NCBI GenBank assembly: GCA_902571315.1
Contig: CACGBM010000002.1
Span: 1-64,000, forward strand
Source of the DNA: Rhodospirillaceae bacterium
GTDB taxonomy: Bacteria > Pseudomonadota > Alphaproteobacteria > TMED109
DNA: 64,000 nucleotides
Direction: 5' to 3'
Part shown: piece by piece, positions 2,547 to 31,176 of the stretch
Position numbering within the stretch: the stretch's first letter is position 1
Layout: each line of letters starts with the position of its first letter
Position numbers and translations under genes: made by a program
Notes under the pieces: model-generated
Database searches by the model: none
The model's input: the letters and a program-made list of their open reading frames with translations, nothing else
Told to the model about the DNA's origin: nothing

Positions 2547-2549
2547 AAA

Positions 2550-7916: not shown

Positions 7917-7918
7917 AT

Positions 7919-10670: not shown

Positions 10671-10679
10671 ATTAAGCAT

Positions 10680-10705: not shown

Positions 10706-10714
10706 TATGTTAAA

Positions 10715-10726
10715 CACATTTATGTG
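10715..10726. promoter_or_regulatory. Palindrome between two divergent promoters
   Basis: CACAT-TT-ATGTG is a perfect inverted repeat lying between the -35-like boxes of the divergent epimerase and flagellin promoters. It could be an operator acting on both; no protein is known to bind it. Confidence 0.35.
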
Positions 10727-10727
10727 A

Positions 10728-10753
10728 CTAATAAATCAATAAACTTTGTCGTT
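10728..10753 (+). promoter_or_regulatory. Sigma-28-like promoter for short flagellin
   Basis: CTAAT (10728-10732), 15 nt, GTCGTT (10748-10753), 27 bp before the ATG at 10781. It matches the motif found upstream of 12511 and 17631 and resembles the FliA pattern TAAA-N15-GCCGATAA. No clear Shine-Dalgarno lies between it and the gene. Confidence 0.5.
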
Positions 10754-10780
10754 ATAAATATATAAAAATAATATGTAAAT

Positions 10781-12219: not shown

Positions 12220-12438
12220 TTTATTTATTACTAAAAAATAATTTCTTTTATTTTCATAGTAAAGCCTTTTAAGATATTTCCATAAATTAAATCAGTGTTC
12301 TGATATAATACTCAGTCTTTATTTAATAAAAATTTAAAACTTTCAAATATAATTAATTAAACTTCTAAACACTTTGATGTGTAAATTTTGAAAAAAACTT
12401 AACATTCTTTTAGAAAACATATGAAAAGTAAATTAGTA

Positions 12439-12463
12439 CTAAACATTTTTTAATTATGTCGTT
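12439..12463 (+). promoter_or_regulatory. Sigma-28-like promoter for flagellin pair
   Basis: CTAAA (12439-12443), 14 nt, GTCGTT (12458-12463), 47 bp before the flagellin ATG at 12511. The leader contains a Shine-Dalgarno AAAGGAAA just before the start. No GG-N10-GC sigma-54 pattern was seen between 12220 and 12510; the rest of this 291-bp AT-rich gap holds nothing else I recognise. Confidence 0.55.
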
Positions 12464-12510
12464 TTAAATTTTGAAAAGATTATTTAAATAGAAATCTGAA
12501 AGGAAACTAA

Positions 12511-13305: not shown

Positions 13306-13323
13306 CTATAAAGGAAAATTAAT

Positions 13324-14118: not shown

Positions 14119-14131
14119 ATTTAGCTTTTAT

Positions 14132-14176
14132 TATCTACGTAGATTATGTTTTTTTAAAAACAAATCTACGTAGATA
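14132..14176. promoter_or_regulatory. Paired identical palindromes upstream of sigma-54 promoters
   Basis: ATCTACGTAGAT occurs at 14133-14144 and again at 14164-14175, 31 bp centre to centre (about three helical turns). Each copy is a self-palindrome, and together they also form a 14-bp stem. Lying 50-160 bp upstream of two sigma-54 promoters, they fit binding sites for an enhancer-binding activator. A terminator for the flagellin to the left is the alternative, but no T-run follows the second arm. Confidence 0.6.
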
Positions 14177-14225
14177 GTTTATTTAGTATATTATATTTTA
14201 AAAGCCACTACCTGTGGTAAAGTAA

Positions 14226-14242
14226 CTGGCATTATATTTGCA
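14226..14242 (+). promoter_or_regulatory. Upstream sigma-54 promoter of the long flagellin
   Basis: CTGGCATTATATTTGCA: GG at 14228-14229 and GC at 14240-14241 with exactly 10 nt between, close to the consensus TGGCAC-N5-TTGC. The predicted start point leaves a leader of about 80 nt before 14332. Confidence 0.65.
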
Positions 14243-14288
14243 CACATTTATATTATGATTATAAATACTAAATTTAAGTGTTTGGCAG

Positions 14289-14305
14289 TTGGCACGATAA
14301 TTGCT
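14289..14305 (+). promoter_or_regulatory. Sigma-54 promoter of the long flagellin
   Basis: TTGGCACGATAATTGCT matches the RpoN consensus at every conserved base; GG (14291-14292) and GC (14303-14304) are 10 nt apart. The expected start point near 14316 leaves a 16-nt leader containing AGGAGG (14321-14326), ideally placed for the ATG at 14332. Confidence 0.9.
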
Positions 14306-14331
14306 ATTAGGGACTTATTAAGGAGGTTTAA

Positions 14332-15921: not shown

Positions 15922-15937
15922 AATTAGTGTGAATTAA

Positions 15938-17575
15938 ATGGCTAGTACGCCAGATATATTATCAAAATTAAACGTTGGATCAGGAATGAATAATTCCGAG
16001 ATCATAACTGCATTAGTAGATGCAGAAAGAATTCCAAAGCAAGAAAGAATTGATACAGATAAAATAAACACTGAAAATACAATTTCAGCTTATGGAGTAC
16101 TTAAAAGTGATATAAGTGGTTTTAGAGATATTGTTAGGTCTATTCAAAGCAGTGATGCATCTGGTTTTATTGGTTCTTCAAGTAATACCACTGTGGCAAG
16201 TTTTTCAACTACTGGGAATACAGGAACTGCAGCGATAAATTCTTCATTAACTATTGATACCTTAGCAAAAACGCATACATTGGTTTCTGGAACATATTCA
16301 AACACTGGCGCAACTGTAGGGGCAGGCTCTTTCACTATTGATTTTGGGACCTGGAGTACTACTAGTTCCTCTAACGATACATTTACTGCTAACAGTAATT
16401 CCTCGGTTACCATTAATACTTCTTCTACCACTTCTTTAATACAATTAAGAGATGCCATAAATAACGCTACTGATAATGCTGAGGCTGTAGTTATGAATAA
16501 CGGATCAGGTTTCATTATTGTCTTAAAAGGATTGAGCGGAGCAGAAAACGAATTAAGGATAACGCCTGGGGCTGGTTCATCATCTGACCTATCAAATAAT
16601 TTTGCTTACACAACAACTACTAAAAATTTAACTCAGACTGTTGATGGGGAAGATGCTTCCTTTACTGTTGATGGCATATCAATGACTAGATCTAGTAATA
16701 CTATTACTAATTTATATAACGGCTACACACTTGAGTTAGAAAGCACAACTTCTTCAGCTATAAGTATCAGTAGTTCTCAGGATATGAGCACAATAGAAGG
16801 TTTACTATCAGATTTTGTTGATGCCTATAATAGCGTTTATTTAGGAATAACCGATCTGACAACAGTTCCGCTATCCTCTGATTCGTCCGCAGGTCCTTTA
16901 TCTGGTGACTCATTAGCTAGGACTATACAGAGAGAATTAAGAAGTTTTACAACAAAGTCTGTTGAAGGATATGAAGATGGTCCTTACTCTTTATCTTTAT
17001 TAGGAGTAAGTACTAATAGGGACGGAAGTATTAGTTTAAATCCTAACACTCTTAGAAACACTTTTGAGTCTAATCCAACTATTGTTGATGCCATTTTTAA
17101 AAATCAACTAACATCAGATAATTCAGAAGTAGAAGTTACAGCTATAGGAAGAGATACTAATCCAGGCTCTTATGCTTTAACTAAGTCTGGATCTGATTAT
17201 TTACTTGATGGAGTTACTTTGACTGCAAGTGGAACCTCTTATTCTTCTTCATCTGGTGATACAAATGGTATTGTATTGAAAATACCTAACACAGATATTT
17301 CTTCTGCTAATATTTATTATGGTAAATCTCTAATGTCATTAGTTGATACTAGCCTTACTAACTTTTTATCATTTAAGGGTGACATAAATAATAGGCTTAA
17401 TAACTTAAATGACAGATTATCTGGTTTTAGGGATCAGCAAGAAGCACTAGACGAAAGAATGAATACTCTTACAGATAGGTTTACTTCACAATTTATGGCA
17501 ATGGAACAATCTATTGCAGGTCTTAAAGAAACTGGAAATTATTTAGATCAAATGTTAAAACAAGATTCAGATTAA
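15938..17575 (+). CDS. fliD: Filament cap protein FliD
   Basis: FliD (HAP2) forms the cap at which flagellin is added. N-terminal part: LNVGSGMNNSEIITALVDAERIPKQER, typical of FliD; C-terminal part: LNNLNDRLSGFRDQQEALDERMNTL then RFTSQFMAMEQSIAGL, the conserved coiled-coil terminal region. Length, 545 aa, is usual. The centre has Thr/Ser-rich strands like the flagellin IN motif. It lies in the run flagellin-fliD, and fliS follows after its own promoter. Confidence 0.93.
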   Translation: MASTPDILSKLNVGSGMNNSEIITALVDAERIPKQERIDTDKINTENTISAYGVLKSDISGFRDIVRSIQSSDASGFIGSSSNTTVASFSTTGNTGTAAINSSLTIDTLAKTHTLVSGTYSNTGATVGAGSFTIDFGTWSTTSSSNDTFTANSNSSVTINTSSTTSLIQLRDAINNATDNAEAVVMNNGSGFIIVLKGLSGAENELRITPGAGSSSDLSNNFAYTTTTKNLTQTVDGEDASFTVDGISMTRSSNTITNLYNGYTLELESTTSSAISISSSQDMSTIEGLLSDFVDAYNSVYLGITDLTTVPLSSDSSAGPLSGDSLARTIQRELRSFTTKSVEGYEDGPYSLSLLGVSTNRDGSISLNPNTLRNTFESNPTIVDAIFKNQLTSDNSEVEVTAIGRDTNPGSYALTKSGSDYLLDGVTLTASGTSYSSSSGDTNGIVLKIPNTDISSANIYYGKSLMSLVDTSLTNFLSFKGDINNRLNNLNDRLSGFRDQQEALDERMNTLTDRFTSQFMAMEQSIAGLKETGNYLDQMLKQDSD

Positions 17576-17581
17576 AATAAA

Positions 17582-17606
17582 CTAAATAAATTTTAGAAAT
17601 GTCGTT
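17582..17606 (+). promoter_or_regulatory. Sigma-28-like promoter for fliS
   Basis: CTAAA (17582-17586), 14 nt, GTCGTT (17601-17606). The fliS ATG is at 17631 with AAGGAG at about 17618-17623, so a start point near 17614 fits a short leader that still contains the ribosome site; this supports GTCGTT being the -10 and not the -35 element. Confidence 0.55.
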
Positions 17607-17630
17607 ACTATATTTATAAGGAGATGTTAT

Positions 17631-18014
17631 ATGAATAGTAAGTTATCTAAATACCAAAAAAGTAATATTGTACAGAAAATGAATACAGACGATAAATACG
17701 ATATTATAAACGAGTTACTTTCCGCGCTTAATAAAAATTTAAAAGCAACCTTAATTAATTTAGATAAACAAAAAACCGAAAAAGCAAAAGATACAGCAAA
17801 AAAAGCTCAAAATATTGCACTTGCTTTACAGAATTGTCTAGATGTAAAAAATGGAGGCGAAATAGCACAGAATTTAAATTATTGTTATAGACATATTAGG
17901 TTCGCAACCCAAAATTATTTAGAAAAAGATAAGTCAAACTTACTTACAAGCGCTCATTTCGTATCCGGTGAATTGCTTAGTGGCTGGAAGGGCATGAATA
18001 CTTCTGTTGCTTAA
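17631..18014 (+). CDS. fliS: Flagellin export chaperone FliS
   Basis: A 127-residue helical protein with the FliS core: helices around DIINELLSALNKNLKATL, then IALALQNCLDVKNGGEIAQNLNYCY and IRFATQNYLEKD. FliS binds the C-terminal helix of flagellin in the cytoplasm and keeps it from polymerising before export. It follows fliD, as in many bacteria, but has its own promoter motif. A second, more diverged FliS is encoded at 20437, which may divide the several flagellins between two chaperones. Confidence 0.85.
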   Translation: MNSKLSKYQKSNIVQKMNTDDKYDIINELLSALNKNLKATLINLDKQKTEKAKDTAKKAQNIALALQNCLDVKNGGEIAQNLNYCYRHIRFATQNYLEKDKSNLLTSAHFVSGELLSGWKGMNTSVA

Positions 18015-18033
18015 ATTAGAAAAATAGTTTTTT

Positions 18034-19746
18034 TTGTGTTATTCTCCTGCTAGGGAGAATAAAATATTTAAAGCTAGTAATTATAAATTTTTACTACCAC
18101 TAGTTCTAGCAGTTCTAATAGGAATAATAGTTTCTTTTGCTGTTCAAGGTTTTATATCATTAGTAAATTTAGTTGAGTCTTATTTACGAGGAGATGAACA
18201 TCTATTACTAGGACTTCCTAAAGAATTTCTTGTTATTAGCGGACCTATAATTGCTGGTATAATAGTTTCAATTATTTTTAAATTAGCAAATTTAGATAGA
18301 TGGCATGGTCCAGCAGACAGTATCCTAGCCGCTCATCTTCCCTCGCATAGACCCAATACAGAAGCCGGTTTATTATCAACTTTAGCCTCTGCTATCTCTA
18401 TTTCTGGAGGAGCATCAGTTGGACAATATGGACCCCTAGTTCATTTTGGCGGTGTTATAGGAGATTACTTTTCTAAACTTACTAGAGATCAAACCTCACC
18501 TCACATTTTATTGGCCTGTGGAGCAGCAGCAGCAGTGTCTTCCGGGTTTGGAGCTCCATTCGCAGGGTTAGTATTTGCGCATGAAGTTATAGTAAGACAT
18601 TTTTCTTTAAAGGCAGTGGCTCCTATTTTGATAAGTTCTGTAGTTGCACATACTTTTAGCAGAGAGGTGTACTTATATGAACCACTTTTCCAAATCTCAA
18701 TAGGAGGTATATCAAATTTTTATGAAATTTTCCCACTTGCATTATTAGGAATATTAGCAGGATTTATAGCTTCTCTTTACATGAGAGGCCTAACAGGAAA
18801 GCTTCCAATCCCAAAACAAATTCCTACCTATTTGTTGCCAATAATAGCTGGAATTATATGTGGTATAACTGGATTATTCTTACCTGAAACTTTAGGGCTA
18901 GGAACGAATTTTATCAGAAATATAATTGAAGACCCAATGAGTATTGATTATGTATTTTTACTTTTATTGGGTAAATTATTTCTGACAGTAGTATGTATTA
19001 GACTCTTTTTATTTGGTGGTATTTTTTCTCCTGCATTATTTATAGGAGTATCATTAGGGTGTATTTTTGTAGCTTTTTTTAATCAAATTATTCCTGACTT
19101 AAATTATTCATTATTTGTTATAGCTGGTATGGCTGCAGTTACATCTTGTGTAATAGGTGGTCCTATATCAACTTTATTAATAGTTTTTGAATTAACTTCT
19201 GATTACCAAGTTGCTCTTGGAGCTGGGATAAGCGTATGTTTTTCTAATCTAATTTCGTCAAAAATTTATGGACACTCTGCGTTTGATCAAATGTTACTTA
19301 ATAGAAATATAGATTTACGATTAGGAAGAGATAATCTTCATTTAAAGTCAATTTCTATTAATTCTATTTATAGTAAAAATTATATTAGGTTAGCTCCTGA
19401 GCATAAAGTAGAAGATATGATAAAAATATTGTCGGAATCAGAAAACAGTGACGGTTATATAATAAGCCCTAAAGGTGTTTTGTTAGGAAAAGTATTTCTA
19501 CCAAAACTAATACAAATAGAAAATAAATCTTTACCGCCTGATAAAAATTTATTTACAGGTTTTTTAAGTTTGAATGAAAATCAAAATATATTAGAGGCTA
19601 TAGATCTTATTAAGGACTTTGTAGGTGAGTCAGTTCCTGTTGTTGATAACAATAATAATATACTTGGCATTGTTACTGAAAGTGATTTATTTAATCAATT
19701 GCTTATTGCAGAAAACATAAGAAAAAAAGAGGAATTATCAGACTAA
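18034..19746 (+). CDS. ClC-family chloride channel/transporter with CBS region
   Basis: A ClC protein of about 570 aa: roughly ten hydrophobic segments over residues 12-420, then a soluble tail with two CBS-like stretches (about 440-565; EVDLFNQL-like end ESDLFNQLL). Signature segments are SISGGASVGQYGP and FLFGGIFSPALFIGVSLG. The gating Glu of ClC exchangers (GREGP in E. coli) is Tyr here (GQYGP). The start is uncertain: the only usual start codon is TTG at 18034 without a ribosome site, whereas AGGGAG at 18052-18057 stands 6 nt before an in-frame ATA at 18064. It sits inside the flagellar cluster with no obvious flagellar role. Confidence 0.85.
   Translation: MCYSPARENKIFKASNYKFLLPLVLAVLIGIIVSFAVQGFISLVNLVESYLRGDEHLLLGLPKEFLVISGPIIAGIIVSIIFKLANLDRWHGPADSILAAHLPSHRPNTEAGLLSTLASAISISGGASVGQYGPLVHFGGVIGDYFSKLTRDQTSPHILLACGAAAAVSSGFGAPFAGLVFAHEVIVRHFSLKAVAPILISSVVAHTFSREVYLYEPLFQISIGGISNFYEIFPLALLGILAGFIASLYMRGLTGKLPIPKQIPTYLLPIIAGIICGITGLFLPETLGLGTNFIRNIIEDPMSIDYVFLLLLGKLFLTVVCIRLFLFGGIFSPALFIGVSLGCIFVAFFNQIIPDLNYSLFVIAGMAAVTSCVIGGPISTLLIVFELTSDYQVALGAGISVCFSNLISSKIYGHSAFDQMLLNRNIDLRLGRDNLHLKSISINSIYSKNYIRLAPEHKVEDMIKILSESENSDGYIISPKGVLLGKVFLPKLIQIENKSLPPDKNLFTGFLSLNENQNILEAIDLIKDFVGESVPVVDNNNNILGIVTESDLFNQLLIAENIRKKEELSD
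18041..18060 (+). promoter_or_regulatory. Hairpin masking a ribosome site
   Basis: ATTCTCC-TGCTAG-GGAGAAT forms a perfect 7-bp stem. The right arm overlaps the only Shine-Dalgarno-like AGGGAG before the ClC gene, so folding would hide it. There is no T-run downstream, so it is not a usual terminator. Confidence 0.4.
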
Positions 19747-20082
19747 CTAAATTTCCTCTATCCAATTTTCATCATAATTTACAGCTTTATCATCAATTAA
19801 TAAATCAAAACTAGGCTTTCCTAAAATAAGTTTATTAAATTTTAGATTCCAGCTTTGTAATTGATTAAGAGTAAATTTATATCCTAATTCGTAAGCTTTC
19901 TTATAATTATTATTTGTTCTTCCCATAAAGCGTGCTGTAAAAATTATAATTTGATTGCCTTCATCGTACAAGTGGTTGATTTTTTTAATTGCTTTTTTAT
20001 TAGGTTTAGAGTTTTTATAATCACTTCCTTCCGTATGACATATTACACCGTCTATATCAAAGGCTAGAACTTTTTGCTTCAT
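19747..20082 (-). CDS. Small HAD-type phosphatase
   Basis: A 111-residue HAD protein without a cap domain: motif I AFDIDGVICHTEG, motif II IIIFTARFMGR, a Lys-bearing LILGKPSFDLLIDDKAVNYD as motif III/IV. Such short proteins are annotated in capsule or LPS clusters as sugar-phosphate phosphatases. It directly follows (0 bp gap) the unknown gene at 20083, so both form one transcription unit. A role in sugar supply for surface glycan or flagellin decoration is possible but not shown. Confidence 0.75.
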   Translation of the reverse strand: MKQKVLAFDIDGVICHTEGSDYKNSKPNKKAIKKINHLYDEGNQIIIFTARFMGRTNNNYKKAYELGYKFTLNQLQSWNLKFNKLILGKPSFDLLIDDKAVNYDENWIEEI

Positions 20083-20421
20083 TTAAGCTAAAATATTTAT
20101 CTGAGATTGGAACTCTTTATTTTTATTTTCTAATGTTGAAATCATATTGTATTTTGTTATTGCTTCATTTTGATTAAATATCGGACCAAGTAAATTTTTT
20201 GCTTTTAAAAACTTTTCGGTATCAAAAGCAATACTAGGGGCAATATTTTTTGAATAAAGGTTTTTTAGATTTTCTTTTTCAGCATATTCTTTTGATCTAA
20301 GATTATTATTTACAGTATTAACAACTCTCGGTCCGTTTATTGGCATACCATTTGCAGTATCAACTTTAGAATAAGGACTTAAAGAACTATTTGGAGTAAA
20401 AATTAAATTGTTTTCAATCAT
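20083..20421 (-). CDS. Unknown protein, about 112 aa
   Basis: I do not recognise it. The chosen start at 20421 (MIENNLIFTPN) avoids a longer version from 20436 whose ATG overlaps the ATG of the divergent gene in CATATG. The protein is soluble, Asn/Lys-rich, with a Pro/Gly-containing first half (GMPINGPRVVN) and a helical C-terminal half ending NKEFQSQINILA. It lies between the HAD gene and a FliS-like gene; co-location suggests an accessory flagellar role, which is an inference. Confidence 0.65.
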   Translation of the reverse strand: MIENNLIFTPNSSLSPYSKVDTANGMPINGPRVVNTVNNNLRSKEYAEKENLKNLYSKNIAPSIAFDTEKFLKAKNLLGPIFNQNEAITKYNMISTLENKNKEFQSQINILA

Positions 20422-20436
20422 ATTTAATAATAACAT

Positions 20437-20856
20437 ATGTATATAAATAAATCAAAAAATTTACAAAGCTATAAAACATCAGAAGAGTCCTCTTATGCAG
20501 TTAAGGATAAACCTGCTGTGGTGTCTGCTATTTTAATGGAATTAAAGAGATCAATGAACATAGTAGCAGATAAAATAGAGAGTACTAAAGATTGGAAACC
20601 ATCAGAAGACGATATTAAGTTAAAAAATAAACATTTTACAAAAGCTTTAACAGCAATTTATTCATTACAAGTATCATTAAATTTTGATGATGGTAGCAGT
20701 AATATTGCAATTAAACTTTTTCAATTGTATGAATATTGCAGACAACAATTAATTAAAGGTTTTTCTAAAAAAGTCGTTGATGGTATTAAGAAAGGTGCTG
20801 AAGCTATTGAAAGTATATGTGAGGCTTGGCAAAAGGGAGTAGCAAATGCAAAATAA
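20437..20856 (+). CDS. Second FliS-like flagellin chaperone
   Basis: A 139-residue helical protein with FliS features: LMELKRSMNIVADKIES, then AIYSLQVSLNFDDGSSNIAIKLFQLYEYCRQQL, where LxxxLNFDxGxxxAxxLxxLYxYC matches the FliS core helix. It is diverged from the FliS at 17631. The next gene (FliT-like) overlaps it by 11 bp, as fliT commonly follows fliS. It may serve one of the flagellin types or the giant FlgK. Confidence 0.75.
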   Translation: MYINKSKNLQSYKTSEESSYAVKDKPAVVSAILMELKRSMNIVADKIESTKDWKPSEDDIKLKNKHFTKALTAIYSLQVSLNFDDGSSNIAIKLFQLYEYCRQQLIKGFSKKVVDGIKKGAEAIESICEAWQKGVANAK

Positions 20857-21148
20857 TTCTGAAAAAAAAATTGACCGATATTTGGATCATTTAGAATTTC
20901 TTTCTTCAAAGATAGCAAACAATATTTCTATGGGCTTATTCCAAGATGTTAATAAAATGGATTATGAAAGAAAAGCAATAATAAATAAAATATCATCTGA
21001 TACAGCTAATTTAAACCATACGAGAAGAAATAGGCTTAAATTAGTTTGGATTAACAATAATAAAATGATAAATAAATTAGAAGATATAAACCAAAATAAT
21101 AAGAAAAAATATCTTAAGTCTAAAAAAACTTTAAAAGCATATAGCTAA
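20846..21148 (+). CDS. FliT-like small helical protein
   Basis: A 100-residue, very charged and probably all-helical protein (IDRYLDHLEFLSSKI, ERKAIINKISSD, MINKLEDINQNNKKK). Position directly after a fliS gene with an 11-bp overlap and the size fit FliT, the chaperone for the FliD cap, but no residue pattern secures this. Otherwise it is an unknown accessory protein. A 76-bp AT-rich gap with no visible terminator separates it from the TPR-sulfotransferase gene. Confidence 0.55.
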   Translation: MQNNSEKKIDRYLDHLEFLSSKIANNISMGLFQDVNKMDYERKAIINKISSDTANLNHTRRNRLKLVWINNNKMINKLEDINQNNKKKYLKSKKTLKAYS

Positions 21149-21224
21149 GGTTATTAAAATTAAATTTTACAGTTTTTCATTTTATTAATAAGAGCAGAAC
21201 TTAAATTATAGTTTTAAAACAAAT

Positions 21225-23300
21225 ATGAATTTTCCTTCAAAAGATAAACTAATTAATATTGAAAGTGCTTTTAATAATGCACGATATTTAGATGTTTTAA
21301 AACAAGCTGATGATTTAATTAAAATATATCCAAACCATAAATCTGGCTGGAATGCTTTAGGGGCAGTTTTGATGAAAATGGGTGAAAAGAAGAAAGCACT
21401 AAATATTTATATTAATGCCGTAAAGTTAATACCAGAAGATTTTGATATTTACAATAACCTAGGAAAAGTCCAGCAACAACTTGGTCATTTAAATGACTCA
21501 GAAAATAGTTTTAAAAAAGCTTTGGAACTAAATTTTGATAATTTTTATACACATTTTAATCTTGGCAATACTTTATATCATCTTAAAAAGAAAAATGAAG
21601 CAGCCGAATACTTAGAAAATGCTACTAAAATAAAACCCAATGATTTTTATGCAAAAGTAAATTTAGGGGTTGTTTTTATGGAACTTCATAAATATGAAAA
21701 AGCAAAAAATATTTTTCAGAAAGCTTTAAAAATAGATTCTCAAAACAAACAAATTCATAATTATTTAGGAACTGCTTTACTAGAATTAGGAGAAATTGAA
21801 GAGTCTATCATTCATTATACTAATGCTATTGATTTAGATAATAATTATATTGAAGCCTGGAATAATGTTTATTATTCAATTCATGCAGGTAAATATTTAA
21901 AGCCTTATGAAAAAGAAAAAATAAATACAATATTAAATAAAAAAATTAGAAATTTAAATAATATACAACTACATATACTTAATCTAAAACTGAACTCAGA
22001 ATCTGTAGAATTTTTTAACTTTCTTAAGAAAAATTTATATATACATAATAAAAATAATAAATTAATAAAAAATACTTGTACAAAGTTAGCTAAAAAAGAA
22101 TATAAGAATAAATACTACAAAAATGATATAATAAACTTACTTCATTTTGGAAGAAGCGGTACAGGTCTTCTTCATAGCTTACTAGATAATCATCCTGAAA
22201 TTTCTACTTTACCAGGAATTTATCTTAGTGAGTATTTTGATACATCTATTTGGGAAAATATAACAAATCTAGGATTTGATAAAATGATTGAAACTTTCAT
22301 AAATATTTATGAGGTTCTATTTGATTCTAGATCTTCTAAACCTGTTCCTTCAATAAATAGAGGATTTATTAAAAATATAGGAATTACTGAGGGAATGACA
22401 AAACTTGGTAAATATAAAGATGAGTTTTTATATGTAGATAGAACTTTATTCAAAAAGGAATTGGAAGATCTAACGTCATCATTTCAATATTTAGATCAAC
22501 TCACATTTTTTAATCTAATACATACGGCATATGAGAAAGCCTCAAAACAGAATGAGAAAAAAAGTAAAATTTTTTATCATATTCATAACCCAGATATAAA
22601 TGCTAATATAAACTATTTACGATTGGCTCCTAATAGTAAGTGGATAATAATGATAAGAAATCCAATAGAAAGTCTGGAGTCTTGGATTTTTAATTATTTT
22701 AATGAAGGTAACTATTCAAAAATAGTAGTTAATATTAAAACAATGCTTTTTGGTGTTAATAGTATATTTTTACATGATGTTAATGCTGTGGGTGTTCGTT
22801 TAGAAGATTTGAAGGAAAACCCAAAAGGTACACTTTCAGAATTATGTAAGTGGATGGGAATTAAAAATAATAAATCATTATATTCAATGACAGCACAAGG
22901 CAAGAGATGGTGGGGCGATGATAGTTCAACAAATATTGAGGCATTTGGAAAAATAAATAAATCAAAAATAGGAAAGGTTTTTACTGAAAAGGATAGATAT
23001 ATTTTACAAACTTTATTTTATCCTCTTAGCGAGAGGTTTGGTTATGTAAAAAAAGATACAAAAAAATTTAAAAGTGATTTAAAAATTATCTACCCATTAA
23101 TGCAAGAGATGTTTGATTTTGAAAAAGAATTAGCAAAAAATATGAATATTAAGAATAAAAGTTTTATAAAATTAGGATATTATAAGTATCTCAGAGTAAT
23201 ACTTCAAGAAAGATGGAGTCTTCTTAATGAAGACTATACTTACTCTAACATGATTAAACCTCTTCTTTTACCTTCAAATTTAAGCAAAGCAGTAAAGTAA
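21225..23300 (+). CDS. TPR-sulfotransferase fusion protein A
   Basis: A 691-residue cytoplasmic-looking protein. Residues ~5-230 contain six to seven TPR units (for example YNNLGKVQQQLGHLNDSENSFKKALEL), which bind other proteins. Residues ~300-660 form a sulfotransferase: the 5'-phosphosulfate loop LLHFGRSGTGLLHSLLDNHP and the 3'-phosphate motif WIIMIRNPIESLESW, both expected for PAPS binding. It probably transfers sulfate to a protein or glycan recruited by the TPR part. It lies downstream of fliS/fliT-like genes and is a close paralogue of the gene at 26403. Codon use is like its AT-rich neighbours. Confidence 0.85.
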   Translation: MNFPSKDKLINIESAFNNARYLDVLKQADDLIKIYPNHKSGWNALGAVLMKMGEKKKALNIYINAVKLIPEDFDIYNNLGKVQQQLGHLNDSENSFKKALELNFDNFYTHFNLGNTLYHLKKKNEAAEYLENATKIKPNDFYAKVNLGVVFMELHKYEKAKNIFQKALKIDSQNKQIHNYLGTALLELGEIEESIIHYTNAIDLDNNYIEAWNNVYYSIHAGKYLKPYEKEKINTILNKKIRNLNNIQLHILNLKLNSESVEFFNFLKKNLYIHNKNNKLIKNTCTKLAKKEYKNKYYKNDIINLLHFGRSGTGLLHSLLDNHPEISTLPGIYLSEYFDTSIWENITNLGFDKMIETFINIYEVLFDSRSSKPVPSINRGFIKNIGITEGMTKLGKYKDEFLYVDRTLFKKELEDLTSSFQYLDQLTFFNLIHTAYEKASKQNEKKSKIFYHIHNPDINANINYLRLAPNSKWIIMIRNPIESLESWIFNYFNEGNYSKIVVNIKTMLFGVNSIFLHDVNAVGVRLEDLKENPKGTLSELCKWMGIKNNKSLYSMTAQGKRWWGDDSSTNIEAFGKINKSKIGKVFTEKDRYILQTLFYPLSERFGYVKKDTKKFKSDLKIIYPLMQEMFDFEKELAKNMNIKNKSFIKLGYYKYLRVILQERWSLLNEDYTYSNMIKPLLLPSNLSKAVK

Positions 23301-23681
23301 ATAAATACACAAAATTTTCAACAACGAAAGATTGATTTAAATAGTAACATACGAGGTTATCTTTTTTAAAGCTTGTTAATTATATCCTAAAATACTGTTT
23401 TTGTAGCCATAGGGGATAGCTTTAAACTTCATCAAGCACCCTAATAGGTTAAAGAAGAGCTTGGCCCTAATATGTCTAAATAACCTTATCTGGTAGAGCA
23501 TTACTGAGCATTCAGTTCTTCTGAAATAATAAGGTGGATACTTGCCACAATAAATTAAGTTCTATTCCAAAATTTTGTTGTTTTTGAAAGCTAGTAAGAT
23601 TTAGCTTTTTAGTTTTATATTAAGTCTCACAGCTAAGTGTTTGGCTTCTATCTTATGTGAGGTTGTAAAAGGTGATTATAC
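23301..23681. other. 381-bp gap without a recognisable gene
   Basis: No open frame of useful length or RNA gene is evident on either strand. The composition is a little less AT-rich than the sulfotransferase gene before it. Short frames carry stops that might mark a decayed gene (about 23440-23540), but I cannot name it. A weak TAAC/GTTA stem followed by TTTTTT at about 23343-23368 could end transcription of the sulfotransferase gene. Confidence 0.4.
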
Positions 23682-25760
23682 TTAAGGCTTCTGACACCAA
23701 AACTGGTACATACCAGCGAAAGCTTGGCGGTTTCTTTTCTCGTACTGATGCCACAGTTCGAAATCATAGATATCCTCTTCATTCCTATGAAGTTCCTTAA
23801 AATTTGAGATAACGTCTTGATTTTCAAATCCACAGAACTTAAGTCCAAGTTCATCTAAAGAGTTTTTAATCTGTGGAAGCGTAAAACGATGCTCTTGTAT
23901 GTGAAATATTAAGTCTCTCAACGCACTGTGACTAAAAAAATCATTCGATGTAGTTAATAGCCGATGATCTTCGTCATGAGATTCTGCAAGTGACTGTCTG
24001 AATTTTCTAATGTCAGCTTCAGATGTACCTACTTTCAATTTTGTAATTTCCTTTCGAACCTTTACAATATGGTGTCTAGCCAACTCACTATACAAACCTA
24101 TCTTCATCAATCCACCGGGCTTTAATAAATCAACGATAACTTTCCATCCAACCATCGGTTCATCCATATGATGAAGAACACCCACACTTTCAATAATGTC
24201 AAATTCCTTGCCTATCTGATGGAGATGTAAAATATCTGCTTGCAAATATTCCAGATTGTCAAACTCCAATTCACTGGTTTTTCTCTTTGCATAAGCCAGG
24301 CTTGCAAGGCTTAAATCCACAGCAGTGACATTACAATTTGAAAATCGAGAAGCAGTTCCTATCGAATGTTGCCCTGTGCCGCAACCAGCGATAAGTATAG
24401 CTGGAGCAGTCACGTTTTTAATATTTTCGGAATATAGCTGAAGATTTAACTCATCACAAACTGCAGCAATTGGTTTTGCCTTTATCGGAGCGTGGAGTTT
24501 CACCCATCTTGGATAGGGATTCTCTTCATACTGCTCTCTAACTTTAAGTGACACATCGTCGGATATTTCTTCCAAAACAGGAATGTCTTTCGCTATCATT
24601 TTCTCGAGAAATGGCTCTTCTATTAGCCTCTTCTTCACACCTTCTAAATTATCAAGAGACTCTAGCTTTTGACACCAATCATACTGGTGAAGTGGACGAT
24701 AAGACGCTAAACACAAAATCTTTATGGCTTCTGGCTGCTCTGATTGCATTAGGGTTTGCGAAATCTTAACTACTAATTCGCCAATCAATTGAGTTTCTTC
24801 GTCACTTTCAATGAAAATATATTCATTAGTAAAACAATGAATGGAAAGCGTTGATAAAAAATAGATGAGTTCAGAAGATACCTCTACTTTATCCAGATTT
24901 TTGAGAAGCATACATCGTATCGCAGTAAAGAGTTTCTCAAACTGAAGCTCAGGAAGAGGACTTACACGCATCAGATGATGAAGAAGAGGAAATTTATTTA
25001 TACTTCCAATTATAGAAGTTACCTCGTTAAGGCTCACAGAAAAATTTTTCTCAAGTAGTAAATTCTTGATTTGAGTATCATGCTTTAAAAGACTTAAAAT
25101 ACTAGCCGCTACATCTTTAGGACGCGTAAAATTTCCAGCAGTTAACAGTCGGGTTAATGAGGTATAAAGCTTGGGGTTTGCTGAATTGAATCTTAAGTTT
25201 TTGATAGCGATACCTAGGTTTACATGGGCTTCGGCATAGTTAGGTTGCAACGCTATCGCTCGGCTATAGCTTGCTAGAGATTCGTCTAATCTTCCTAGTT
25301 CTTGTAGGGTGACACCCAGGTTGTTGTGAGCTAGGGCAAAGTCGGACTTCAAGGCTAATGCTTGTTTATAGCTTGCTAGAGCTTCGTCTAATCTTCCTAG
25401 TTCTTGTAGGGTGACACCCAGGTCGTTGTGAGCTTTGGCATAGTCAGGTTGCAACGCTATCGCTTTGCAATAGCTTGCTAGAGCTTCGTCTAATATTCCT
25501 AGGTCTTTGAGCGTGTTACCTAAATTGCTGTGGGCTTCGGCATAATCAGGTTGCAACGCTATCGTTTTGCTAAAGGTTGCTAGAGCTTCGTCTAATCTTC
25601 TCAGTTTTTGAAGCGTAGCACCCAAGTTGTTGTGAGCTAGGGCAAAGTCAGGTTGCAACACTATCGCTTGGTTATAGCTTGCTAGAGCTTCATCTAATTT
25701 TCCTAGCTCTTTGAGCGTGTTACCTAAGTTGTAGTGAGCTAGGGGAAAGTCAGGATTCAA
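23682..25760 (-). CDS. TPR-methyltransferase protein, downstream part of a split gene
   Basis: Residues ~1-180 are five to six near-identical 34-residue TPRs; a helical linker follows; residues ~410-600 are a class I SAM methyltransferase with motif I ILIAGCGTGQHSIG, acidic AVDLSLASLAYAK and SVGVLHHMDEPMVGW. The C-terminal tail ends QYEKRNRQAFAGMYQFWCQKP. The frame is the same as that of 25809-26291, with one TAA between, so this is the rear part of a once longer gene (870 codons). The first start here, TTG at 25760, lies in mid-repeat. Base composition is visibly richer in G/C than both flanking genes, suggesting transfer. Confidence 0.75.
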   Translation of the reverse strand: MNPDFPLAHYNLGNTLKELGKLDEALASYNQAIVLQPDFALAHNNLGATLQKLRRLDEALATFSKTIALQPDYAEAHSNLGNTLKDLGILDEALASYCKAIALQPDYAKAHNDLGVTLQELGRLDEALASYKQALALKSDFALAHNNLGVTLQELGRLDESLASYSRAIALQPNYAEAHVNLGIAIKNLRFNSANPKLYTSLTRLLTAGNFTRPKDVAASILSLLKHDTQIKNLLLEKNFSVSLNEVTSIIGSINKFPLLHHLMRVSPLPELQFEKLFTAIRCMLLKNLDKVEVSSELIYFLSTLSIHCFTNEYIFIESDEETQLIGELVVKISQTLMQSEQPEAIKILCLASYRPLHQYDWCQKLESLDNLEGVKKRLIEEPFLEKMIAKDIPVLEEISDDVSLKVREQYEENPYPRWVKLHAPIKAKPIAAVCDELNLQLYSENIKNVTAPAILIAGCGTGQHSIGTASRFSNCNVTAVDLSLASLAYAKRKTSELEFDNLEYLQADILHLHQIGKEFDIIESVGVLHHMDEPMVGWKVIVDLLKPGGLMKIGLYSELARHHIVKVRKEITKLKVGTSEADIRKFRQSLAESHDEDHRLLTTSNDFFSHSALRDLIFHIQEHRFTLPQIKNSLDELGLKFCGFENQDVISNFKELHRNEEDIYDFELWHQYEKRNRQAFAGMYQFWCQKP

Positions 25761-26060
25761 GGCTATCGCTTTGCTACAGCTTGCTAGAGCTTCGTCTAAT
25801 CTTCCCAGTTATAGAAGCGTGGCACCCAAGTTGATGTGGGCTAAGGCAAAATTAGGTTCAAACCTTATCGCTTTGCTATAGCTTGCTAGAGCTTCGTCTA
25901 ATCTTCCTAGTTCTTGCTGCGTGACACCCAAGTTGCTGTGGGCTAAGGCAAAATTAGGTTTCAACCTTATCGCTTTCCTATAGCTTGCTTGAGCTTCGTC
26001 TAATCTTCCTAGTTCTTTGAGCGTGGTACCTAAGTTGTAATGGGCAACAGCGTCTTGAGG
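25200..26060 (-). repeat. Tandem 102-bp TPR-coding repeats
   Basis: About nine consecutive units of 102 bp, each encoding a 34-residue TPR of type AxAHxNLGxTLxELGRLDEAL. DNA identity between units is high, with whole blocks repeated exactly, so the array was expanded recently or is kept alike by recombination. It spans the stop codon at 25809-25811. Spacing and coding content exclude a CRISPR array. Confidence 0.85.
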
Positions 26061-26291
26061 AGATAATGCAACTGCTGTCTGATTAGCATCTACGGCTTCA
26101 GACTTTCTACCTGTTGCTCCTAATACGGCGCTTAAAACTTGCCAAGCAAATTGATGCTTAGGAAAAGTTTTGGTAATGTGTATAGCGAGCTTTTCTGCTT
26201 CATTAAATCGCCCGCTCTGATAATGCTCTAATAGGCTATTGAGTTTTTGCTGAGATGGATTGTTAGCTTTTAAGTTTTGTTTTTTTACCAT
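25809..26291 (-). pseudogene. N-terminal fragment of the split TPR-methyltransferase gene
   Basis: 160 codons beginning MVKKQNLKANNPSQQKLNSLL and running into TPR units (AHYNLGTTLKELGRLDEAQ). It ends at TAA (25811-25809) exactly where the repeat pattern demands a coding triplet: the related unit at about 25610 reads CTTCAAAAACTG where this one has CTTCTATAACTG, so two A-T changes made the stop. The following codons continue the TPR in the same frame. Either a recent loss-of-function mutation or a truncated TPR protein made separately from the downstream part. Confidence 0.75.
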
Positions 26292-26402
26292 CTTTATTTT
26301 ATTATAAATATTAATATTATTTTAATAAATTTAAATAAAAATTTTCTAAATAATATTAATTACTTTATTTTATTATTGGCATTTATATTGCTTATCATTG
26401 CT

Positions 26403-28739
26403 ATGGATAAAAATATAAATAATTTAATAAACAAAATTGATGACACTGCTTCTCAACTAATTTCAAAAGGAAAAATTGCAGGACTTTCTGACGATAGGTT
26501 AGAAATACTAGAAAAGAAAATAAACCAAATAAAAATAAATAACTCTGAAAAAGCTTTAAGTACTTTACATCATAGGTCCAATACTAATAAATCAAAAGCC
26601 ACAGATAATGAAAAATTCACATTACTTGATAGTTTTAATAAACGAAAATATTATAAGGCTGATAAGAAAGCAAAATCTCTCATTGAAAAATATCCAAGTG
26701 ATCCATTTTCTTATAAAATTTTAAGTTTAGTTTATAATGTTTTAGGAAAAAGTATGGAAGCATTATCTTGTTCCAGGAAAGCTATAGAGTTAGATCCAAC
26801 GGACGCTGAAACACACATGCAGCTAGGACTATTTTTTTTTGATCAAAATAATATTGAAAAAGCACTACTATCTATTGATAAAGCTTTAGTATTAAAACCA
26901 AACTATCCACAAGCTCATTTCAATAAAGCTAATATATTAAAAAAACAAAGGTTATTTGATTTGGCAAAAGACCATTATTTAGAAGCAGTAAATTTAAACC
27001 CTGATTACTTAGATGCTTATATCAACTTAGGGAGTACATTGGTAGATTTAGGATTACTAGAGGACTCTAGGGCTATTCTTGAATATTGCAAAGAAATGGA
27101 ACCACATAATTGCATAGCTCATTTTAATTTAGCATATGTTTTATTTAAGTTAAGAAAATTTGATGATGCCATCATTGCCTTTCAGAAGGTTTTAGAACTT
27201 AATTCAAAACACGAAGATGCATACTTTCTTCTCGGATCAACTCAACTATTATTGGGAAAGCACGAAACAGCAACAACTAATATAATAAAAGCAATTAAGC
27301 TTAATCCAAATAATGTATTATGTTGGAAAAAATTATATGTTGCTTCAACTATATATAGATATTTAAATTGTAAAGATAAAGTTTCATTTCCAGATTACTT
27401 TAATAATACTAATTCAGATTTAATTAAAATTAATATTGCAATTCTTGAATTTAAATTATCTTTAGGGAAAAGAGAAGTAGATTATTTTTTTAAAGAAGCA
27501 CAAAATAAAATTTTTCTTGAAGAAAAAAATATAATTAGTAATCCTAACTTTAAAGAAAATGAAAAAAAAGAAGAGATTTTGCTCCCCCAACAAGTAGTTT
27601 CTCTATTACATTATGGAAGAAGTGGAACAGGTCTATTACATAGTCTTATTGATAACCATTCACAAATATCAGCTTTACCAAGTATTTACCTATCTCAATA
27701 TTTTGCAAAAGAAATATGGGATGATTTAACTAAAGATGGTTGGGATAGCTTAATTGATAATTTTATTAATATTTATGAAGTACTTTTTGATGCGAGAGTT
27801 TCAAAACCTGTATTAAGTACAGCTCATGATAATATAGAGTACATTGGTGTCAAAGAAGGCATGACACAAGTAGGAATTAATAAAGATGAGCACCTTTGTT
27901 TAGATAAAAAATTATTTAAAAAAGAACTAAGTATCTTATTATCAAATTATAGTCAAATAGATCAATTTACATTTTTTAAACTTGTCCATATTATTTTCGA
28001 TAAAATACTCAATAATTCAAATAAAAATATGATTTTTTACCATTTTCATTATGCTAGTGATTACGCTAAGTTTAATTTTATTAATCATGCTCCTAATGCT
28101 AAGTGGTTAGTGATGGTTCGTGATCCCGTAACTAGCTGTGAATCCTGGATATTTGATGAATTTGAAGAAAATAATTATGATACGCTAGTAGCTAAGCTCT
28201 GCTCAATGCTATTAGATATTAGTGATCCTCTTTTTAGCAATAAAGTTGCTATAGGTTTACGATTTGAAGACCTAAAAGAAAAGCCTAAAAAAGCTATACC
28301 CGCACTATGTAGATGGTTGGGTGTTAAAGAAGAGACAAATTTATATAATATGACAGCCCAAGGAAAAAAATGGTGGGGAGATAAGACTAGTGCAGAACAA
28401 CCAGCCTTTGGTATAATTAACAAAAGTAAACTGGGAAAAGTTTTTAGTGAAAGAGATAAATTAGTTTTAGATACATTATTTTATCCACTTAGATTAAAGT
28501 TTAATTATGTGAATGAAGATAAGAATAAATTTAAAAAAGATCTTAAAGTTATTAAATCACTTATTGACAATATGTTAGACTTTGAAAAGAAAATAGTTAA
28601 TGAAACACAAGTAGAAAAGTCAAAGTTTTTACAATCGGGCGCTTACTTATTTTCAAGAAGCATTATGATTAGGCGTTGGGAAGAACTAAATAAATATGGC
28701 ACTTATCCAGTAACTTTAGAGCATTTAAAGATAGATTAA
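26403..28739 (+). CDS. TPR-sulfotransferase fusion protein B
   Basis: Paralogue of the gene at 21225. With the start at 26403 (MDKNINNL) it has 778 residues; the frame is open to 26277, but that adds a 42-residue hydrophobic, Asn/Ile-rich run coded by the divergent promoter region. Order: a Lys-rich helical lead (~1-75), about seven TPRs (~80-330; for example AHFNKANILKKQRLFDLAKDHYLEAV), sulfotransferase (~390-750) with LLHYGRSGTGLLHSLIDNH and WLVMVRDPVTSCESW. The two paralogues share long C-terminal blocks such as MTAQGK-WWGD and FGxINKSKxGKVF, so they likely use the same donor (PAPS) and related targets. Confidence 0.83.
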   Translation: MDKNINNLINKIDDTASQLISKGKIAGLSDDRLEILEKKINQIKINNSEKALSTLHHRSNTNKSKATDNEKFTLLDSFNKRKYYKADKKAKSLIEKYPSDPFSYKILSLVYNVLGKSMEALSCSRKAIELDPTDAETHMQLGLFFFDQNNIEKALLSIDKALVLKPNYPQAHFNKANILKKQRLFDLAKDHYLEAVNLNPDYLDAYINLGSTLVDLGLLEDSRAILEYCKEMEPHNCIAHFNLAYVLFKLRKFDDAIIAFQKVLELNSKHEDAYFLLGSTQLLLGKHETATTNIIKAIKLNPNNVLCWKKLYVASTIYRYLNCKDKVSFPDYFNNTNSDLIKINIAILEFKLSLGKREVDYFFKEAQNKIFLEEKNIISNPNFKENEKKEEILLPQQVVSLLHYGRSGTGLLHSLIDNHSQISALPSIYLSQYFAKEIWDDLTKDGWDSLIDNFINIYEVLFDARVSKPVLSTAHDNIEYIGVKEGMTQVGINKDEHLCLDKKLFKKELSILLSNYSQIDQFTFFKLVHIIFDKILNNSNKNMIFYHFHYASDYAKFNFINHAPNAKWLVMVRDPVTSCESWIFDEFEENNYDTLVAKLCSMLLDISDPLFSNKVAIGLRFEDLKEKPKKAIPALCRWLGVKEETNLYNMTAQGKKWWGDKTSAEQPAFGIINKSKLGKVFSERDKLVLDTLFYPLRLKFNYVNEDKNKFKKDLKVIKSLIDNMLDFEKKIVNETQVEKSKFLQSGAYLFSRSIMIRRWEELNKYGTYPVTLEHLKID

Positions 28740-28785: not shown

Positions 28786-29847
28786 TTAATTATGAATTTG
28801 CAACTTTTTCATCTTCTCTATGAGAGTAGTTCTATTAATTTTTAAAAGATCCGAAGCTTTTGATACGGTCCCCTCAGCTTTTTTTAGAGCTGACTCAATT
28901 AGTACTATTTCTACATCACGCAAATAAACTCTAAGATCAATATCATCAAAAAAATCAAACCAATCTGCATAATGTTTTGGGTGAGGAAGAGGCGAAGTAC
29001 TTTTTAGATCATCATTTTCTTCATTCCCGATATCTAAATTTTGAGTAGCATCCCACAAAGCATTTTGTTCTTCCTCAGTTGCAGGTACCTTCAGTCTAAG
29101 TAAATTTTCAAATACATTTTTTTTAGTAATTTCTTCTCCAGAAAATAAAATATGTGCTCTTTCAATGACATTTTTCAATTCTCTAATATTACCAGGCCAT
29201 AAGTGCCTTTTTAGAGCTGTAATAGCATCATCAGAAAATTTTGGTAAATTACTTTTATTATTTAAAGAGTTTAAAAGGTGTTCGAGAAGTAAAGGTATAT
29301 CTTCTACTCTTTCAGACAAAGTAGGGACGTTAATAGGAAATACATTTATTCTATAGAATAAATCAGCTCTAAATGAACCATCATTAACTTTCTTTTCTAA
29401 ATTTTGATGAGTAGCACATACCATTCTTAAGTTCAATGGTATTTCTCTGCCTCCTCCTACTTTTTGTATTTTTTTACTTTCAAGAGCTCTGAGCAATTTT
29501 GCTTGAAGTGGTAACGGTATATCACCAATTTCATCTAAAAATAATGTGCCATTAGAAGACATCTCAAATCTTCCTTTTCTAGCTTTGTCAGCTCCAGTGA
29601 ATGCACCTTTTTCATGTCCAAAAAGTTCACTTTCTAGAAGCTCACTAGGAATAGCAGCACAATTTACAGGAACAAATTGACCTTTTCTTTCAGAATTTTT
29701 ATGAATTGCTTCAGCTACTAATTCTTTTCCTGTTCCTGTTTCACCCAAAATTAATACAGTACTTTCTGAGCTAGCCACTTTATTTATAAGTAACTTCAAT
29801 TCTAAAACACTTTTGCTCTTTCCAATTATCAGTTTGTGAATATCCAT
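28786..29847 (-). CDS. Sigma-54-dependent activator with Fis-type HTH (FleQ-like)
   Basis: A 353-residue enhancer-binding protein consisting of little more than an AAA+ domain and a DNA-binding tail. Walker A GETGTGKE is at about residue 38, the sigma-54 contact loop GAFTGA at about 79, Walker B LFLDEIGD at about 100; the C-terminus ([28 protein letters not shown]) is a Fis-type helix-turn-helix. There is no receiver or other sensory domain. Next to a FleT-like partner and fliE, it probably is the flagellar master activator (FleQ/FlbD role), binding sites such as the palindromes at 14132. Confidence 0.85.
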
Positions 29848-30005: not shown

Positions 30006-30030
30006 TCTGTAGTTATATTTGGAGGAATAT

Positions 30031-31176
30031 ATGACACATATTAGTATTTTAGAGCAAGAAATTAAGGGTCTGAACAATATTAAAAAAAAATTAGAAGAGC
30101 GAGAAGCTCTAGTATCTGTAATAAAGGATTTTGAAGATTTAAAGCATTTACAAACATCTACTTTAGTAGTTTCAGAGAAAATAGTTCAAAGTGATAATGA
30201 AATTATTAGTATTGCAAGAAATCTTAAAATAAAAAGAGTAATTCTAATAAACAATCAATCCAAAGATTTCTCTATTAAAAAAGAGCTAGGGGACGCTTTA
30301 GTTAAAATAACGTATGCAGCAAATGATATTTATGGCCTTGAAGTTTTTCTATCTTTTTGCGTGGAAGATCAAAAGTTTTTAACGGGAAGTAAAGAGTCAC
30401 TCAGTTTAAAAAATTTAGCTAAGAAAGTAGCAAGTACAGACGTTACGGTATTCATAAATGGTCCAACAGGAACTGGAAAAGAGGTAGTAGCGAATTATAT
30501 TCATGACAACTCATCAAGAGCTGAAAAACCCTTTGTAGCCGTTAATTGTGCAGCGATACCTGAAAATATGTTAGAAGCTATTTTATTTGGTCATGAGAAA
30601 GGCTCATTTACCGGAGCTTCCAATGCCAACAAAGGTATTTTTAGAGCTGCTGATACAGGCACACTGTTACTTGATGAGATATCTGAAATGCCTTTAAGTT
30701 TACAAGCAAAACTACTTAGAGTATTGCAAGAGAGAAAGGTAACTCCAGTAGGAGGAACTAGAGACATTGAGATCAATGTTAGGATAGTTGCAACTACAAA
30801 CAGAGATATGATAGAAGAAGTAAAAAATAACAAGTTTCGACAAGACTTATATTATAGACTTAATGTCTTTCCTATTAGGACTGTAGATTTATCAAAAAGA
30901 GAGGAGGATATAATTCCTATAACTGTAGCTATGATAAAAAAACATTGTGAGAATAAAAAAGATTTTCCTTATTTACATCAAGCTGCTCAAGAAGCTTTGA
31001 TAAATCATTTTTGGTCAGGTAATGTGAGAGAACTTGAAAATGTAATTCTTAGAGCTTTAGTCTTATCAAACAGTGAAGATATTAATCATCATCACATATT
31101 GGTCGATGATAGCACAAATATAAAAAATAAAAATTATCAGAAGCTAGAAGATAAGATAGTAGCAATGGGAAATTAG
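30031..31176 (+). CDS. Sigma-54 activator lacking a DNA-binding domain (FleT-like)
   Basis: A 381-residue enhancer-binding protein. The start at 30031 follows GGAGG; an in-frame TTG at 30019 overlaps that site. An N-terminal domain of ~120 residues without clear receiver signature precedes an AAA+ domain with GPTGTGKE (~145), the loop as GSFTGA (~190) and LLLDEISE. After the AAA+ part only about 30 residues follow (ending KLEDKIVAMGN) and no helix-turn-helix is visible. In Rhodobacter sphaeroides FleT, also encoded just before fliE, has no DNA-binding domain and works bound to FleQ; the same arrangement is inferred here. Confidence 0.8.
   Translation: MTHISILEQEIKGLNNIKKKLEEREALVSVIKDFEDLKHLQTSTLVVSEKIVQSDNEIISIARNLKIKRVILINNQSKDFSIKKELGDALVKITYAANDIYGLEVFLSFCVEDQKFLTGSKESLSLKNLAKKVASTDVTVFINGPTGTGKEVVANYIHDNSSRAEKPFVAVNCAAIPENMLEAILFGHEKGSFTGASNANKGIFRAADTGTLLLDEISEMPLSLQAKLLRVLQERKVTPVGGTRDIEINVRIVATTNRDMIEEVKNNKFRQDLYYRLNVFPIRTVDLSKREEDIIPITVAMIKKHCENKKDFPYLHQAAQEALINHFWSGNVRELENVILRALVLSNSEDINHHHILVDDSTNIKNKNYQKLEDKIVAMGN

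Follow-up and report, generated by a model that had tools for sequence, protein, structure and literature searches.

The flagellar locus

The window analysed here, a stretch of 64,000 nucleotides from a Rhodospirillaceae bacterium (contig CACGBM010000002.1 of assembly GCA_902571315.1), carries a cluster of flagellar genes from an alphaproteobacterium with AT-rich DNA. The assembly is 54% complete (1.03 Mb in 71 contigs), and the nearest named relative found in a scan of species genomes is the Rhodospirillaceae assembly AG-896-G13. Within the cluster lies an island in which two genes code for proteins, here called ST1 (691 residues) and ST2 (about 778 residues), that combine an array of tetratricopeptide repeats (TPR) with a sulfotransferase domain of the type that uses 3'-phosphoadenosine 5'-phosphosulfate (PAPS). 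A TPR-methyltransferase gene is situated between them. An earlier note on this DNA proposed that the TPR part could recruit flagellin for sulfation, and the observations described below make it probable that flagella of bacteria bear sulfate groups.

ST1 begins 76 bp 3' of a small FliT-like gene on the same strand, which follows the gene of the FliS paralogue FliS2, and two sigma-54 activator genes bound the island on its other side (Table 1). The placement of the block between FliS/FliT-like genes and activators, as given in the earlier note, is thus correct, with the FliT-like gene named from its size and position. The four types of flagellin said to be coded nearby were all recovered with the Flagellin_N model, which matches FlgL of the window as well.

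Domains, fold and motifs of ST1 and ST2

The open reading frames, the Pfam matches and the GRSGTGLLHSL loop (residue 309 of ST1, residue 405 of ST2) agree with the two paralogous fusions that had been claimed. The Sulfotransfer_3 model (PF13469) scores 31.2 bits in ST1 and 32.5 bits in ST2 against a cut-off of 27, and these are its only two matches in the assembled, 54% complete genome. No Glyco_transf_41 domain was found by Pfam in either protein. In an alignment of 24 relatives, the GRSG-type 5' loop and the 3' R-x-P motif are near-invariant.

The AlphaFold2 model of ST1, with a predicted local distance difference test score (pLDDT) of 87.7, consists of 16 TPR helices followed by a compact domain. 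In Foldseek, the TPR half matches designed TPR proteins and the superhelices of O-GlcNAc transferase (OGT) and SPINDLY at E values of 1e-9 to 1e-12. As such matches swamped the fold search with full-length ST1, the sulfotransferase domain was refolded (pLDDT 91.3) and searched alone. All 15 PDB matches at E < 0.001 are PAPS sulfotransferases, including human tyrosylprotein sulfotransferases (TPST) 1 and 2, a tick TPST, CurM and an olefin synthase domain, all of them remote, with TM-scores below 0.5. By loop, 3' motif and predicted fold, ST1 and ST2 are PAPS-sulfotransferase-fold proteins.

Neither a signal peptide nor a hydrophobic segment above 1.3 on the Kyte-Doolittle scale was found in ST1 or, when translation starts at position 26403, in ST2, as would be expected of an enzyme that works in the cytoplasm with the PAPS available there. 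The methionine at this position is a more likely start of ST2 than the TTG at 26277, where the open frame begins. To judge by their sequences, ST1 and ST2 are old paralogues: their catalytic domains are 46% identical and are not sisters on the tree of the sulfotransferase domain. The ratio of nonsynonymous to synonymous substitution rates (dN/dS) relative to the sister genome G002 is 0.22 for ST1 and 0.35 for ST2, indicating purifying selection.

The methyltransferase between the two genes

A TPR-methyltransferase flanked by the two sulfotransferases is present, as the earlier note had stated, but it lies on the minus strand and its reading frame of 870 codons is divided by an in-frame TAA at codon 161, so that the class I S-adenosylmethionine (SAM) domain does not belong to one intact gene. 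In G002, QQ stands where the window has LL just before the stop, and the contig ends there. The TAA may be either a mutation or an error of assembly or of single-amplified-genome (SAG) sequencing in the tandem repeat that contains it.

The GC content of the methyltransferase gene is 0.40, and 0.34 at third codon positions (GC3), compared with 0.25-0.27 and 0.15-0.17 for ST1 and ST2, and copies 77-79% identical occur in unrelated genomes. The gene is compositionally foreign and, as far as its sequence indicates, was probably inserted recently between the two ST genes. For its C-terminal part, dN/dS relative to G002 is also well below 1. The family was found in 40 of 289 genomes of the class, where it has no obvious flagellar linkage. 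The idea that the methyltransferase is a designed third component of the system is weakened by its foreign composition, opposite strand and interruption, and by the commonness of its family. Nearness of TPR-methyltransferase to TPR-sulfotransferase genes in four loci (L057, L048, L052 and L043) leaves a loose link between the two families open.

Insertion of the island and probable exchange of the flagellin tract

In locus L094 of G010, which belongs to another genus of the same family, a spacer of about 2 bp separates the FliT-like gene from the sigma-54 activator. The window carries 7.6 kb exactly at this empty site, which indicates that the island was inserted. The gene order of G002 is the same as that of the window up to the contig ends inside the methyltransferase. 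Contig C15 of G002 (loci L026 and L027) is an inverted duplication with sigma-54 genes, FliE, FliF and ST2 at both ends, and is probably an amplification chimera of the single-cell assembly.

From the flagellins through ST1, the nucleotide identity to G002 is mostly 0.92-0.99, while it is about 0.86 outside this tract, and the synonymous divergence (dS) falls from 0.7-0.86 in the flanks to 0.07-0.24. Such a change is expected if the block was exchanged by recombination, and these comparisons suggest that about 13 kb comprising flagellins, FliD, FliS and ST1 were probably exchanged as one unit.

Alleles could be compared in four genomes of the genus, two with ST genes and two with genes that join a TPR array to a GT41 glycosyltransferase domain (TPR-GT41), and the comparison is suggestive at this size. 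The two ST genomes share 91-97% identity in Fla1-3, FliD and FliS1, for which the identity between ST and GT41 genomes is 60-72%; Fla2 and Fla3 are 79-86% identical between the two GT41 genomes. Fla4, FliS2, FlgL and an epimerase are 85-99% identical in all four. The alleles of flagellin, FliD and FliS1 thus appear to co-vary with the type of modifying enzyme.

Since FliD alleles vary with the enzyme as strongly as flagellin alleles do, the client might be a hook-associated protein, FliD or the very large FlgK of 1788 residues, rather than flagellin. The flagellar gene trios for PAPS synthesis described below, which abut fliD, point in the same direction. FlgK is located outside the exchanged tract, however, flagellin is the immediate neighbour in several linked loci (L041, L071) and the precedent, FlmG, acts on flagellin, all of which makes a hook-associated client improbable. 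It is also conceivable that the ST genes are non-functional hitch-hikers brought by recombination, given that the methyltransferase is foreign and contains a stop and that the tract was probably exchanged recently. This is extremely unlikely, because dN/dS is well below 1 for ST1, ST2 and the C-terminal part of the methyltransferase, and both ST genes are intact in two species.

Flagellar linkage in other genomes

In an even sample of 385 genomes of the class, the ST subfamily, called at E <= 1e-30, is found in five, all of which have flagellin (226 of the 385 do overall). In four of the five, an ST gene and a flagellin gene are no more than about 7 kb apart: the window, G086 (contig C32), G238 (contig C2, with two tandem ST genes) and G364 (contig C48). 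A rough placement model, based on flagellin numbers and genome sizes, gives a chance of about 9e-7 for at least four such placements, and of 6.5e-6 for three of four when the genome of the window is left out. The mere presence of flagellin (5/5 genomes with ST, 221/380 others) is not significantly different (p 0.07); for all family genomes (23/28 against 226/385) p is 0.01 in a set biased by selection.

Among 84,980 species genomes scanned, 39 ST loci were found in 29, with flagellar genes within 10 kb of ST in six. These are AG-896-G13; AH-224-B08, where ST stands beside a flagellin of 738 residues; BS150m-G7, with the order fliW-flagellin-fliD-fliS-ST; AG-453-K15, with flagellin-ST-GT41-ST-ST; and S2_Bin_157 and B5T1B8, where ST directly follows fliP (PF00813) with an overlap of about 10 bp and a gap of 3-4 bp. 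The two counts overlap, since G086 and G364 of the class sample are apparently the same genomes as BS150m-G7 and B5T1B8, respectively. The proposed check for similar fusions beside fliS, fliD or flagellin therefore found them recurrently and in distant genomes, beside fliW and fliP as well. On the tree of the ST domain the flagellar-linked copies are scattered, requiring about eight gains or losses of linkage, seven of them forced by strongly supported branches.

The flagellin loci of sister genomes contain TPR-GT41 genes. In G001, from the genus of the window, ST comes after a TPR-GT41 gene fragment that codes for the C-terminal part; the N-terminal part ends another contig beside flagellins. 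Both parts match one gene of G004, and G001 is probably a further case of linkage. GT41 and ST genes are also neighbours in L039, L044, L060 and L071, a gene order that hints at a sugar as the acceptor. The Maf model PF01973, now called MptE-like, matched in archaeal controls only.

Supply of PAPS

In G101, G103 and G122, genes for ATP sulfurylase, adenosine 5'-phosphosulfate (APS) kinase and pyruvate kinase stand beside fliD/fliS (Pfam E values of 1e-28 to 1e-47). Two of these flagellar loci (L112, L113) also code for a CmcI-type methyltransferase, a nucleotidyltransferase and a TPR-GT41 protein; the third (L109) has a gene of the TPR-X type, described below. Another contig of G122 (L071) carries flagellin-ST-GT41-ST-ST. 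No further flagellar trio was found in a search of the class with the flagellar-type ATP sulfurylase. In the flagellar locus of G364, fragments of a pyruvate kinase-like and of an APS kinase reading frame come immediately after fliP-ST, and in L042 a TPR-ST gene is followed by APS kinase and pyruvate kinase. As the trio is found in surface-glycan loci too, it is a general supply module that has come to lie in the flagellar cluster in certain lineages.

Pyruvate kinase, by regenerating ATP, lets PAPS accumulate in vitro (PMC9885120), and its presence in the trio makes sense for this reason. Near the TPR-ST genes of L031, L057 and L060 a pyruvate kinase is fused through a PUA domain to ATP sulfurylase in a single protein of about 725 residues, apparently a natural enzyme that activates sulfate and regenerates ATP.

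A small protein with an NGRSG motif and no Pfam match is encoded directly after CysC-Sat-PK (APS kinase, ATP sulfurylase and pyruvate kinase) in a surface-polysaccharide-type locus of a sister genome (L103), and a similar protein is found in G009 (L114). The L103 protein possibly represents an unrecognised sulfotransferase family.

The TPR-sulfotransferases might act on surface polysaccharide, lipopolysaccharide or other surface proteins, the flagellar locus being a convenient insertion site. Most family members lie outside flagellar loci, as does a cluster of two methyltransferase and two ST genes (MT-ST-ST-MT) near an autotransporter of 1254 residues in L057, and in L103 the PAPS trio with its small sulfotransferase-like protein belongs to a polysaccharide-type locus. 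This explanation is nevertheless rather unlikely in view of the repeated independent nearness to flagellin (rough chance 9e-7), the operon-like fliP-ST pairs of two distant genomes, the presence of PAPS genes in flagellar loci and the co-variation of alleles. Furthermore, a TPR arm suits a protein client better than a polysaccharide.

Proposed sulfation of flagellin before export

The sulfotransferase fold, the recurrent linkage, the flagellar PAPS genes and the allele co-variation together make it reasonably probable that ST1 and ST2 perform a TPR-guided step in the cytoplasm, similar to that of FlmG, by which flagellin or its glycan is sulfated before export. The TPR superhelix would hold a flagellar filament protein, most likely a flagellin, in the cytoplasm. 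The C-terminal domain would then use PAPS to sulfate the protein itself or a sugar that it already bears, and the sulfated protein would subsequently leave through the flagellar secretion apparatus. The PAPS would be provided by the CysC - ATP sulfurylase - pyruvate kinase set coded elsewhere in the genome. Catalytic activity, flagellin binding, the exact acceptor, the timing before export and the biological role are what we infer here.

Several observations weigh against this proposal. No flagellar gene is present within 10 kb of ST in 23 of the 29 family genomes, and five of 28 have no flagellin at all; the family must therefore have other clients and is not exclusively flagellar. That homologues lie mostly away from flagellar genes had been named in advance as a refutation, and in most genomes they do, yet the linkage recurs in distant ones. 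In the genome of the window the PAPS trio is on contig C42, outside the flagellar locus, and in relatives it serves surface-glycan loci too. GT41 was not detected in this 54% complete genome. The methyltransferase looks like a broken late arrival and not like a designed partner. The catalytic base of TPST is a glutamate shortly after the RSGTT loop; no counterpart was found in the aligned ST segment, which reads TLPSIY and contains no acidic residue. Tyrosine sulfation is thus doubtful and tyrosine specificity should not be assumed. The small flagellins of the window have only 3-6 tyrosines.

The position of the island next to two sigma-54 activators could also mean that ST1 and ST2 are mainly regulators, TPR proteins that sense the state of flagellin or its chaperone and control these activators. 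Listeria GmaR, which combines an anti-repressor with an O-GlcNAc transferase, is a bifunctional precedent. In other genomes, however, ST stands beside fliP, fliS/fliD/fliW or flagellin and not beside activators. Together with the conserved cofactor loop and 3' motif, the purifying selection and the co-located PAPS genes, this makes a regulatory function very improbable.

A more extended version of the sulfation proposal can be put forward tentatively, and is on balance rather doubtful. In marine alphaproteobacteria, TPR-GT41 would glycosylate flagellin, the TPR-sulfotransferases would sulfate the sugar and a locus-coded trio would give PAPS and regenerate ATP, with flagellins, FliD, FliS and the enzymes being swapped as a cassette like a flagellar serotype.

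If sulfation of flagellin takes place, it would be a new chemistry for flagellin modification, and the TPR arm would be a general adaptor to which cells fuse different transferases. Sulfate would give filaments a strong negative charge, with likely effects on phage attachment, filament bundling and grazing in sulfate-rich seawater. The fliP-ST and fliS-fliD-ST arrangements and the flagellar PAPS trio are concrete targets, and the trio makes the hypothesis testable through metabolic genes too.

Other genes of the flagellar loci

Proteins here called TPR-X, in which TPR are followed by a C-terminal domain of some 250 residues without a Pfam family, occur repeatedly in flagellar loci, in BS150m-G7, G238 and others. 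They are possibly another class of FlmG-like flagellin-modifying transferase. A protein of 163 residues, also without a Pfam family, is encoded in the window and adjoins flagellin or FliS genes in distant alphaproteobacteria; it is a candidate flagellar assembly or chaperone protein. A ClC chloride channel gene lies in the flagellar cluster and is kept between FliS1 and FliS2 in G002, G004 and G010. Downstream of the flagellar genes is a molybdenum-hydroxylase-type block, assigned by eye only, with FAD-binding and 2Fe-2S subunits and XdhC-, MobA-, CoxG- and rhodanese-like proteins.

Table 1. Positions of genes, domains and other features; those with a locus prefix (L) are outside the window
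Feature	Position	Strand	Basis or remark
Four flagellins, proposed clients	10781-11548, 12511-13305, 13324-14118, 14332-15921	+	Flagellin_N
FliD	15938-17575	+	Pfam; allele differs with enzyme type
FliS1	17631-18014	+	Pfam; allele differs with enzyme type
FliS2, export chaperone upstream of ST1	20437-20856	+	PF02561, E 1.1e-12
FliT-like small frame, last before island	20846-21148	+	Size and position; no Pfam match
ST1	21225-23300	+	Pfam TPR families (to 1e-30), PF13469
ST1 TPR superhelix, proposed client-binding arm	21240-22046 (residues 6-274)	+	AlphaFold2 helices
ST1 PAPS-sulfotransferase domain	22125-23234 (residues 301-670)	+	Domain model, PDB fold matches, motifs, conservation
ST1 5' loop GRSGTG	22149-22166	+	
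ST1 3' motif MIRNPI	22650-22667	+	
TPR-methyltransferase, class I SAM fold, split by stop	23682-26291	-	Methyltransf_25, 4e-17
In-frame TAA	25809-25811	-	Reading frame; inside 102-bp tandem TPR
ST2	26403-28739	+	PF13469, motifs
ST2 loop GRSGTG	27615-27632	+	
ST2 motif MVRDPV	28113-28130	+	
Sigma-54 activator	28786-29847	-	NCBIfam NtrC/NifA/FlbD-type match
Sigma-54 activator	30019-31176	+	NCBIfam NtrC/NifA/FlbD-type match
Tract of raised identity to G002	10501-23500		Nucleotide identity
FlgK-like protein, unusually large	2550-7916		1788 residues
163-residue protein	9192-9683	-	
Proteins like the 163-residue protein	L109:1-363, L112:9393-9884, L113:981-1472, L088:5703-6194		Likeness judged by eye
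ClC chloride channel	18034-19746		
Molybdenum-hydroxylase-type block	46852-53428		By eye
Pyruvate kinase barrel/PUA-like/ATP sulfurylase fusion	L031:112-2277	-	
Same fusion	L057:2028-4199	-	
Same fusion	L060:8893-11082	+	
NGRSG-motif protein	L103:10807-11661		No Pfam match
TPR-X	L034 (five genes at 3-8422), L085:15391-17142, L109:4212-6590		

Comparison with known systems

The earlier statement that flagellin sulfation of this form is undescribed agrees with a phrase search of 5.39 million open-licence papers, in which no paper on sulfation of bacterial flagella or flagellin was found; in broader searches the archaeal archaellum was the sole precedent. In Halobacterium salinarum, the N-linked tetrasaccharide of archaellins carries sulfate, and VNG1056C and VNG1057C are involved (PMC11980604). 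The archaellum is likewise a swimming filament with a sulfated glycan, but it is unrelated to the bacterial flagellum and no TPR guide is reported there.

The ST domain has the PAPS-sulfotransferase fold of TPST1/2 and of the sulfotransferase domains of CurM and olefin synthase (OLS), which are its best matches in the PDB in both profile and structure searches. TPST is membrane-anchored, faces the Golgi lumen and has the catalytic glutamate, whereas ST1 and ST2 are predicted to be soluble and cytoplasmic and possess a TPR arm. This arm is a superhelix of the same type as in the GT41 O-GlcNAc transferases, SPINDLY and GmaR, although the GT41 domain is theirs only.

The closest parallel is FlmG of Caulobacter crescentus, where the TPR domain is the part that binds flagellin and is required for its efficient modification (PMC7591256). 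The C-terminus of FlmG is a glycosyltransferase, while that of ST1 and ST2 is a PAPS sulfotransferase, and flagellin binding by the latter two is putative. FlmG, ST1 and ST2 are all soluble alphaproteobacterial proteins with N-terminal TPR and a C-terminal transferase, for which a cytoplasmic action on flagellins ahead of export is proposed.

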